Source: Phyllobacterium sp. 21LDTY02-6
GTDB lineage: Bacteria; Pseudomonadota; Alphaproteobacteria; Rhizobiales; Rhizobiaceae
NCBI RefSeq assembly: GCF_023554255.2
Contig: NZ_JAMJWD020000001.1
Coordinates: 1,084,755 to 1,148,754, forward strand
Length of the DNA stretch: 64,000 nucleotides
Reading direction: 5' to 3'
Shown: positions 17,837 to 21,107 of the stretch, one piece after another
Numbering within the stretch: the first letter of the stretch is position 1
Layout: each line of letters opens with the position of its first letter
The notes under the pieces: model-generated
What the model saw: only the letters and a program-made list of their open reading frames with translations
What the model was told of the DNA's origin: nothing
Database searches by the model: none
Program-made: the position numbers and the translations under genes

Positions 17837-18082
17837 ATGGACCGCTTTGAAACGTTTGCCACCTGGATATTCATTGTCTTCGGTGCATTGATCATCGCCG
17901 GTTTGATGGCGTTCGGCATCGCCGCCGACGACAAACCCGTGTTCCTCTTTGCCTTCGCCGCCGCCTGCAGCGCATTCTTTCTCGGCTTCGCCGTCATATT
18001 CGACCAGCCGCGGCTCTACGGCCTTATCCTGTTCGTCTCGTTCGTCCTCATCGCCGGATCGGTGACGGCCATCGTCACCTAG
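17837..18082 (+). CDS. 81-aa membrane protein, paralogue of 20862-21107
   Basis: Three hydrophobic segments separated by charged turns, starting MDRFETFATWIFIVFGALII and containing FDQPRLYGL before the last segment. A GCAGGAG ribosome-binding site lies 6-10 nt before the ATG. It has the same length as, and clear similarity over its entire length to, the protein at 20862-21107 (shared FGAL.I.GLMA, FLFA, GFAV.FD.PRLYGL.L). Function unknown. No GGAAC-type promoter with a CGTT partner is seen upstream. Confidence 0.7.
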   Translation: MDRFETFATWIFIVFGALIIAGLMAFGIAADDKPVFLFAFAAACSAFFLGFAVIFDQPRLYGLILFVSFVLIAGSVTAIVT

Positions 18083-18351: not shown

Positions 18352-18384
18352 CTTCCAAAAAAGCAAAAAAATCTGCAACTCGCC

Positions 18385-18409
18385 GGAACCTATTTTCAGG
18401 CGCGTCGTT
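18385..18409 (+). promoter_or_regulatory. EcfG-type general stress promoter (GGAAC-N16-CGTT)
   Basis: GGAAC at 18385-18389 and CGTT at 18406-18409, separated by 16 nt, match the -35/-10 pair recognised by the alphaproteobacterial general stress sigma factor EcfG/RpoE2. Transcription would start around 18415, just before the candidate sRNA. Confidence 0.75.
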
Positions 18410-18414
18410 ATAGA

Positions 18415-18502
18415 GGCACTGGTTCCCCCAGACCAGTATGGCTAAAACCCACAAGCCAAACAGCCCAATCCTCTTGCCCCTGAGGATTGGGCTTTATTCT
18501 TT
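18415..18502 (+). ncRNA. Candidate general-stress sRNA with C-rich loop
   Basis: From the predicted start after the EcfG promoter to the terminator T-tract is about 88 nt. A 5' hairpin has a perfect 6-bp stem (ACTGGT 18418-18423 with ACCAGT 18432-18437) and the loop TCCCCCAG. A single-stranded A/C-rich middle (CTAAAACCCACAAGCCAAAC) follows, then a strong terminator. The layout (stress sigma promoter, 5' C-rich loop, terminator) resembles GsrN of Caulobacter, an EcfG-type sRNA that pairs through a C-rich loop; homology was not tested. No open reading frame fits in it. Confidence 0.6.
18462..18502 (+). terminator. Rho-independent terminator of candidate sRNA
   Basis: Perfect 12-bp stem AGCCCAATCCTC / GAGGATTGGGCT with 8-nt loop TTGCCCCT, followed by TTATTCTTT. 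It ends 6 nt before the ribosome-binding site of the next small gene, so that gene would need readthrough or its own promoter. Confidence 0.9.
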
Positions 18503-18517
18503 GCGATGGAGGGATCG

Positions 18518-18697
18518 ATGTCGCTCGAAAATGCCAGACAGGCAATAGAAGCTGCAATTCATTCCGGCGATTTCAAGAGCATGGGTATCGCCGTGTTCAA
18601 GGCGATCAATGCCCTCGAGGAAAGGATCAAGGAACTCGAGCGGGAAACGGCGCAGCTGAAAGCAAAGTTGAACGGCTCGGGCCCAGCTGATTCTTGA
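18518..18697 (+). CDS. Small coiled-coil protein, 59 aa
   Basis: Start ATG at 18518 chosen because GGAGGGA lies just before it; an upstream in-frame ATG at 18506 would overlap that site. The second half (INALEERIKELERETAQLKAKL) is a strongly predicted coiled coil with leucine heptads. No known domain recognised. It directly follows the terminator of the stress sRNA candidate, so it may be expressed only by partial readthrough. Confidence 0.6.
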   Translation: MSLENARQAIEAAIHSGDFKSMGIAVFKAINALEERIKELERETAQLKAKLNGSGPADS

Positions 18698-18919: not shown

Positions 18920-19369
18920 TCAGCTCGCCTCGACAATAGCCTTTATATCGTCCGTGGAATGGTTGGTGAGCGTCTTCGGGATCTCGCTTACGATCCTGTC
19001 CGTCACTTCCTTATGGAATTCCTGCCGCATCTCGCCGAGAACCAGAGGCGGCGCGACGATGATCAGCCGCTCGAATTCTCCCTTGTGGGCGTAAGCGTAG
19101 AGCGCCTCGGCAATATCCCTGGCAAAGCGGCGCTTGGAGATCTCGTGCCAGTCGGTTTCTTCCGTTGCGCTGCGGTGGGCGCTCGGGCCATCGGCAAAGC
19201 GCCCGGGCTTGTCGGTGCCCTGCTCGCGCGTTGCCGGGTTGGACTGGGTCATCTGATGGATCGTTTCGAGATGGACGTTCTTGACGTCCTTGCCGTTGCG
19301 AAGAAACAGCGCCTTCTCGCCATCCGCAACGATGATCCACGTCTTGCGATTGAGTGGCAGGTCGACCAT
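18920..19369 (-). CDS. Host-attachment family protein (eRF1-like fold)
   Basis: 149 aa with the pattern of the Host_attach family: WIIVADGEKALFLRNGKD at the N-terminus, a Gly/Ser/Pro-rich middle with DKPGRFADG, then RRFARDIAEALYAYAHKGEF, LIIVAPPLVLGEMR and a C-terminal helix pair. The name comes from an Agrobacterium attachment locus; biochemical function is unknown, although the fold is related to release factor domain 2. An EcfG-type promoter lies upstream (19476-19500), so it should belong to the general stress regulon. A 14-codon leader ORF ends 1 nt before its ATG. Confidence 0.88.
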   Translation of the reverse strand: MVDLPLNRKTWIIVADGEKALFLRNGKDVKNVHLETIHQMTQSNPATREQGTDKPGRFADGPSAHRSATEETDWHEISKRRFARDIAEALYAYAHKGEFERLIIVAPPLVLGEMRQEFHKEVTDRIVSEIPKTLTNHSTDDIKAIVEAS

Positions 19370-19475: not shown

Positions 19476-19500
19476 AACGCCTGCCCAATCGAGATGTTCC
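19476..19500 (-). promoter_or_regulatory. EcfG-type general stress promoter (GGAAC-N16-CGTT)
   Basis: On the minus strand GGAAC (19500-19496) is followed after 16 nt by CGTT (19479-19476). Predicted start near 19468, about 100 nt upstream of the host-attachment gene. Confidence 0.75.
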
Positions 19501-20330: not shown

Positions 20331-20356
20331 GGAACAAAGATGGCGATTGCCACGTT
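20331..20356 (+). promoter_or_regulatory. EcfG-type general stress promoter (GGAAC-N17-CGTT)
   Basis: GGAAC at 20331-20335 and CGTT at 20353-20356 with 17 nt between them, 33 nt upstream of the DUF883 gene. Confidence 0.75.
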
Positions 20357-20388: not shown

Positions 20389-20697
20389 ATGGCTACCAAT
20401 ATGGAGAAGGTTCGAGCGGCTACCGAGGAAGATCTGGAGAGCCAGATCGCGTCGCTGCGCAAAGAGCTTTCATCAATAACGCAATCCTTGTCCGAACAGG
20501 GCTATGAGATCGGCGACCAGGCGGCCACCGCCTATGACGCCGTCAAGCGAAGCGGCCGAAAAGCCGTGAAATATGTTGGCGAAGAGGCACATTTCGTTGC
20601 CGACAAGGCTCGGGAGAATCCGTTGACTGCCGTTGCCATCGTATCTGCGGTCGCCGCTATCGGGCTATTGGCTGGTTTGAGTGCTTATCGCCGATGA
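20389..20697 (+). CDS. DUF883 (ElaB/YqjD-type) membrane-anchored protein
   Basis: 102 aa. A helical N-terminal two-thirds rich in Glu, Lys and Ala (TEEDLESQIASLRKELSSI, KYVGEEAHFVADKARENP) is followed by one C-terminal membrane segment (AVAIVSAVAAIGLLAGL) and YRR. The E. coli relatives YqjD/ElaB tether ribosomes at the inner membrane in stationary phase. The EcfG-type promoter just upstream fits a stress-induced role. A terminator follows at 20721. Confidence 0.88.
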   Translation: MATNMEKVRAATEEDLESQIASLRKELSSITQSLSEQGYEIGDQAATAYDAVKRSGRKAVKYVGEEAHFVADKARENPLTAVAIVSAVAAIGLLAGLSAYRR

Positions 20698-20746: not shown

Positions 20747-20861
20747 TCATGTGACGGGCCCGCCGGACGCCCTCCCCCTTGTTGCGTTGTAGCGGCCGAA
20801 CGGGGTATGAACATCCTGGCGGCGCGCGGTTGCATGCCGTGGAGTCTCAATGGAGTCACCG

Positions 20862-21107
20862 GTGGACAAATTCGAAAACTACGCCCTGGCCTTGATGGTC
20901 GTGTTCGGTGCCCTCGTCATCGGCGGTCTCATGGCCATTCATATCGCCTGGATGCACAAGGCCGGCTTCCTCTTCGCCCTCGGATCGGCAGTCGTCGTCT
21001 GGGGCGCGGGATTTGCCGTCCTCTTCGACAAGCCGCGCCTGTACGGGCTGCTGCTCCTGTGCGCGATCCTTCTCATCGCAGCTTCGATCACGGTGCTCGT
21101 CCGCTGA
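20862..21107 (+). CDS. 81-aa membrane protein, paralogue of 17837-18082
   Basis: Start GTG at 20862 is preferred: TGGAG lies 6 nt upstream, and the product VDKFENYALALMVVFGALVI then aligns end to end with the 81-aa paralogue MDRFETFATWIFIVFGALII. An in-frame ATG at 20850 adds four residues (MESP). Three hydrophobic segments; FDKPRLYGL precedes the third. Function unknown. It lies between the DUF883 gene and rirA. Confidence 0.7.
   Translation: MDKFENYALALMVVFGALVIGGLMAIHIAWMHKAGFLFALGSAVVVWGAGFAVLFDKPRLYGLLLLCAILLIAASITVLVR

Follow-up and report, generated by a model that had tools for sequence, protein, structure and literature searches.

A predicted C-loop small RNA of Phyllobacterium behind an EcfG-type promoter, with a sister copy in most genomes of the genus

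Judged from its sequence, the interval 18416–18502 of the 64-kb stretch of Phyllobacterium DNA analysed here (the window) is probably a small non-coding RNA gene, conserved across the genus and usually accompanied by a sister copy; we refer to the two RNAs as A and B. The locus is marked by its conservation, promoter geometry, structure, paralogy and EcfG-type neighbourhood (Table 1). A first-pass annotation had combined a GGAAC-N16-CGTT promoter, a perfect 6-bp hairpin with the loop TCCCCCAG and a 12-bp terminator into an RNA of 88 nt. All three elements are present, the 12-bp terminator stem with its 8-nt loop lying at 18462–18493 and being followed by TTTATTCTTT, and a short terminator-bounded RNA is again predicted, with a length closer to 85–87 nt.

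Table 1. Features of the sRNA A locus and its surroundings; positions are those of the window.
Feature	Position	Strand	Remarks
Predicted sRNA A, about 85–87 nt	18416/18418–18502	+	predicted 5′ end at 18416–18418
A/T tract, proximal UP-element-like, 11–20 nt 5′ of −35	18365–18374	+	
−35 element GGAAC, EcfG-type promoter	18385–18389	+	GGAACC in 20/20 A orthologues, GGAAC in 18/18 B
−10 element CGTT	18406–18409	+	16 nt from GGAAC in this genome
Hairpin 1, ACTGGT-TCCCCCAG-ACCAGT, perfect 6-bp stem	18418–18437	+	
Hairpin 2, TGGCT-AAAACCCACA-AGCCA, 5-bp stem	18439–18458	+	MFE fold
Hairpin 3, intrinsic terminator, loop TTGCCCCT, T-rich tail	18462–18502	+	terminator scan
59-aa ORF 3′ of terminator	18518–18697	+	50–52 aa in 19 relatives
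EcfG-type promoter GGAAC-N16-CGTT of baeRF12/Host_attach gene	19476–19500	−	gene 18920–19369 (−), Pfam
EcfG-type promoter GGAAC-N17-CGTT of small protein gene	20331–20356	+	gene 20389–20697 (+)

The predicted RNA has a folding energy of −36.6 kcal/mol; 200 shuffles averaged −18.0 (sd 2.7), and none of them folded as well (z −6.8). One additional pair closes inside the 6-bp stem of hairpin 1 in this fold. We aligned 38 A and B sequences, 37 of them distinct, by fitting them to the structural model, a procedure that favours the structure. In this alignment 98.9% of cells over the whole structure pair, with a covariation score of 0.082 that 0/500 shuffles reached, and sliding the pairing partners by 1–3 columns leaves at most 54.6% paired and a covariation of 0.017. 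Two of the five structure measures do not exceed the shuffles: double-sided pair changes (2; 120/500 as high) and further pair types (2; 500/500).

The stem letters of hairpin 1 are near-invariant over the 37 distinct sequences, and its loop drifts in length and retains 3–6 C; as the stem shows no variation, one unpaired cell apart, it is backed by conservation and not by covariation. In hairpin 2, 98.3% of cells are paired and two pairs show compensatory changes: a UA pair is replaced by CG in three homologues and a GC pair by UA in ten. The A/C-rich middle of the RNA, earlier described as unstructured, is in fact this conserved 5-bp hairpin, so that copy A consists of three hairpins with a C-run in each loop. 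Runs of at least three C are retained in loops 1 and 2 of all 38 copies; the third run lies in the terminator loop (CCCC) in 20/20 A copies; in 17/18 B copies it is in the linker that follows hairpin 2, the CCCC of the terminator loop not being constant in B. A short peptide encoded inside A, from an ATG at 18438 with a frame of 36 aa, was considered and rejected: the TATGGC at its start was not seen in the 19 relatives.

A DNA search matched sRNA A in 20/20 Phyllobacterium genomes, and its full layout is kept in all of them and repeated in paralogue B. Thirteen named records (12 Phyllobacterium and one Rhizobiales bacterium) were collected as matches of the terminator sequence. Of 297 family genomes searched with the covariance model R1 under strict filters, only the five from Phyllobacterium gave matches, two of them twice; across 109 genera of the family nothing outside Phyllobacterium was matched. 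A second model, R2, comprising the promoter and 5′ module of B, was run over 385 class genomes, again with strict filters, and matched none except our own; these stricter filters, applied in searches of more than 40 genomes, mean that distant relatives may be missed. In Rfam there was no match at gathering score for A; at E values up to 10 there were five matches, all scoring far short of their thresholds and apparently unrelated, and no alpha-r family is among them (4227 models, which do not necessarily include alpha-r14). A check of alphaproteobacterial Rfam models over 140 kb of our own genome returned one match, an rpsB RNA, which says little. On sequence grounds, A and B are apparently a new, genus-restricted family of EcfG-type C-loop sRNAs.

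In 41 genomes of the family, R2 scored one additional, weak match (E 0.027), at positions 1501–1600 of locus L084 from another genus: a GGAAC-N16-CGTT promoter with the hairpin GCGTGTG-TCCCC-CACACGC behind it and, next, a ribosome-binding site and ATG. As a relative it was rejected as chance, since a ribosome-binding site and ATG follow and about one such score is expected in 41 genomes; it is an mRNA leader with a C-loop, perhaps by coincidence.

The paralogue B has its promoter and two 5′ hairpins in common with A and differs in terminator and locus. A pattern for the module matched at 39 places in 19 genomes, its reversed control at three; six of the 39 were dropped as chance, five on sequence context and one (G003:C33) on pattern alone. 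R2 found A in 19/19 and B in 17/19 genomes, and one more copy from the R1 search brings B to 18/20. B was not found in genome G006 and is absent from our own, in which the locus is closed up to fewer than 100 bases between the stop of the small gene and the convergent gene. Where present, B is flanked by a pair of small-protein genes and by this convergent gene, which we take to encode a MerR-type regulator next to ihfA. Upstream of the gene pair, GGAAC-N16-CGTT is present in all four B loci that were checked, as it is in our own genome. Among 29 loci from other genera, one of them short, regular expressions found no C-loop hairpin of a B-like RNA 3′ of the MerR-type gene and two stray GGAAC matches (L132 and L141); four further genera with the gene yielded no locus.

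Directly behind the terminator of A stands a small ORF of 50–59 aa, in 20/20 genomes and 13/13 named records; it occurs in 5/297 family genomes, all five Phyllobacterium. The C-terminal end of its product is charged and, by eye, coiled-coil-like. Such constancy raises the question of whether the hairpins and terminator form a 5′ leader or attenuator of this ORF, made by read-through. The spacing speaks for a leader: the gap from the terminator stem, 24 nt here and 36–98 nt in the other 19 genomes, is at most 47 nt in 15 of those 19, which would be too short for a promoter and ribosome-binding site of the ORF's own. We nevertheless regard a cis leader as unlikely, given the strong 12-bp terminator and locus B: in the four B loci read for genes no small ORF stands behind the RNA, just the 3′ end of the convergent gene. 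Since B has the same promoter and 5′ module, another terminator and, in those four loci, no such ORF, selection seems to act on a free RNA. If transcription did run on into the small ORF, as is possible, A would have a cis role as well.

The geometry of the promoter hardly varies. GGAAC is found in all 38 A and B copies, and in the 20 A copies the alignment shows GGAACC to be invariant amid an otherwise drifting upstream region. The spacer between −35 and −10 is 16 nt in 36/38 promoters, and the distance from −10 to ACTGG is 8 nt in 37/38, a constancy that makes a start at or just before ACTGG likely for both RNAs. No sigma70-like site was found on the plus strand between 17600 and 19600. The bare motif is not enriched genome-wide (84 matches vs 106 for the reversed control), so that single matches mean little and the case for A rests on conservation.

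Three GGAAC-N16/17-CGTT sites occur in the window, all within 2 kb and each before a likely transcription unit; shuffles gave a mean of 0.71, and three of 100 shuffles gave three or more. Besides A, the sites precede the baeRF12/Host_attach gene, whose promoter reads CGTT in 9/9 named records where the gene was found, and the small protein gene at 20389–20697, with CGTT in 8/8; in both cases this is out of 13 records, the stored stretches of which end at different places. The product of the latter gene, which matched no Pfam or NCBIfam family, is presumably a membrane-anchored protein of DUF883/ElaB type. A neighbouring ABM-domain gene has no GGAAC-N-CGTT site in 12/12 records. Elsewhere in our genome phyR, nepR and an ECF sigma gene adjoin one another; we call the sigma gene EcfG because of its position beside the other two, and nepR is present in 19/19 Phyllobacterium genomes. 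The earlier proposal of a short RNA gene with its own terminator under an EcfG-type promoter thus agrees with a genus-wide conservation, a surrounding cluster of EcfG-type promoters and a genome equipped with phyR, nepR and an ECF sigma factor. Control by EcfG is well supported, if not proved, because the two neighbouring genes carry GGAAC-N-CGTT in all nine and all eight of their records.

The −10 element is less uniform. Promoters of A read CATT in 17/20 genomes and CGTT in three, this genome among them; those of B (n = 18) read CGTT 13 times, CATT three times, and AGTT and AATT once each; and in three sets of Phyllobacterium protein-gene promoters the −10 is CGTT in 35/35 (19, 8 and 8), a count that omits one of nine host-attachment promoters, which has fewer than 60 upstream bases in its record and likewise reads CGTT. 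The A/T fraction of the 10-nt bin lying 11–20 nt upstream of −35 is 0.90 in the 20 A and 0.89 in the 18 B promoters; in the three protein-gene sets, which lack such a tract, it is 0.40–0.47. The prevalence of CATT in A and the A/T tract could mean that another ECF sigma factor, one preferring CATT, serves the promoter mainly or besides EcfG, with the A/T tract adding strength or some constitutive activity. This we consider quite improbable: the same site alternates between CATT and CGTT among orthologues, B reads mostly CGTT, and the tract and an ATT-type −10 are also combined at the presumptive promoters of nepR, which we would expect to be under EcfG control. Of these, 13/19 genomes have a matching site, all 13 of ATT type (TATT 8, CATT 2, GATT 2, AATT 1), and the presumptive phyR promoters read TGTT in 19/19; A/T in the same bin is 0.89 at the 13 nepR and 0.69 at the 19 phyR promoters, the boxes of which overlap. 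Since the nepR and phyR promoters do not read CGTT either, sites of this type are probably recognised by EcfG. An A/T tract exclusive to the sRNA promoters, which we had considered, is rejected on the same figures.

The phyR–nepR intergenic region itself (L037, 1320–1350, and relatives) contains overlapping divergent GGAACTTTT boxes, the phyR side in 19/19 genomes and the nepR side with an ATT-type −10 in 13/19.

We think it fairly probable that A is a trans-acting sRNA of about 85–87 nt, made from an EcfG-type promoter and pairing through its C-loops with G-rich mRNAs, and that locus B supplies a sister RNA. Stress frees EcfG from NepR via PhyR, upon which A would accumulate: the promoter (A/T tract, GGAACC, 16-nt spacer, C[A/G]TT) would drive an RNA ending at its own terminator, and the C-runs of the loops would pair with G-rich stretches in a restricted group of mRNAs, in the simplest case in or close to the ribosome-binding site. 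In most Phyllobacterium species, locus B would give rise to a sister RNA sharing both 5′ hairpins. Transcription of A, its dependence on EcfG and its action in trans we infer from the features described above; as to the direction of regulation and the targets, we can offer a guess.

Targets were sought in a 400-kb comparison of four genomes with 284 ortholog groups that have a usable common start. GGGG lies within −30 to 0 of the start in all four genomes in 4/284 groups, and CCCC in 5/284; in three other windows of the scan, conserved GGGG was found in one, one and two groups. The groups with conserved start-region G-runs in this sample are, as we name them from their protein starts, rpsC, rplB, adk and lpxD. 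In a duplex scan of the same 284 groups, 4/15 shuffled loops beat the real loop 1; loops 2 and 3 beat 15/15 shuffles, but shuffling disrupts the C-run and the result for these two loops is therefore not clean evidence. The lack of a signal for loop 1 would suit a protein-binding decoy, in which the C-rich loops titrate an RNA-binding protein instead of pairing with mRNA, as would C-runs that are kept while loop length and flanks drift, on stems whose letters barely vary; with nothing positive in its favour, we hold a decoy to be very unlikely.

A wider but doubtful reading, which we would not expect to hold, is that A and B form a two-locus Phyllobacterium stress RNA family whose C-loops are interchangeable pairing sites. 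Their promoters, with an A/T tract and, in A, mostly CATT, are closer to those of nepR-ecfG than to those of the stress proteins, so that the RNAs might be induced together with the sigma factor, at a threshold different from that of the protein arm, and might act on growth genes with rare conserved G-runs in their start regions.

Alphaproteobacteria already offer examples of small RNAs in the general stress response: GsrN, Bsr6 and the RpoE2-assigned sRNAs (PMC5869019, PMC12772402, PMC7143759, PMC3616915). For EcfG of Phyllobacterium no report was found in the openly licensed literature. Bsr6 of Brucella, likewise an alphaproteobacterial sRNA, depends on RpoE1, an EcfG-type factor, and carries the box of that factor (PMC12772402); its likeness to A is one of description. 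The RpoE2-assigned sRNAs of Sinorhizobium meliloti (PMC7143759, PMC3616915), for example SmelC601, have a predicted general-stress promoter (PMC7143759); they are likened to A by description, the promoter class being alike, and no relation emerged in our family-wide model searches. In architecture, A and B resemble NfeR1 of the rhizobial alpha-r14 family: three hairpins present one pairing motif from loop to loop, and a genome holds more than one copy. NfeR1 differs, however, in its sigma70 promoter, in the anti-Shine-Dalgarno motif that all its loops carry and in its hypervariable stems (PMC7143759), whereas A and B have an EcfG-type promoter, a plain C-run motif and near-invariant stems.

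The earlier reading had likened A to GsrN of Caulobacter crescentus, a general stress sRNA that pairs through a C-rich 5′ loop with G-rich mRNA sites and activates katG mRNA, its proven target (PMC5869019). The C-rich 5′ loop bears this comparison out; a closeness beyond it finds no support in Rfam, in the locus or in katG. That A should be an orthologue of GsrN has next to no chance and was rejected: the two share a general stress promoter signature of EcfG type, an exposed C-rich 5′ loop, a terminator and a similar length, but the search of 385 class genomes (families included not given by name) matched none but our own, GsrN BLASTn matches are confined to Caulobacteraceae in the same paper, and A lies away from the phyR-ecfG locus (C1:1103139, with nepR on a separate contig at C5:729871), whereas GsrN outside Caulobacteraceae is recognised there by its position next to sigT-phyR, an adjacency that A does not have. 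Unlike GsrN, the Phyllobacterium RNAs have C-runs in three loops and two paralogous loci, and no homology was detected with the tools used, the GsrN sequence itself being outside the comparison. The katG gene (TIGR00198) is present in 1/19 Phyllobacterium genomes (L162, G012), missing in the other 18 and not found in our own, so that GsrN's target cannot apply in most Phyllobacterium species. At most, A works like GsrN.

In the papers cited, a function is known for few alphaproteobacterial general stress sRNAs, and the target gene of the best studied of them is mostly absent in Phyllobacterium. With two copies and clear boundaries, an RNA family like this one in plant-associated bacteria would make it possible to ask cleanly whether C-loop sRNAs have arisen repeatedly and independently as a post-transcriptional arm of EcfG.

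Finally, the cluster of stress promoters in the window is flanked by two related small protein genes, at 17837–18082 (+) and 20850–21107 (+). Their products, for neither of which an NCBIfam family was found, are membrane proteins by eye and show 39–56% identity in cross-matches.
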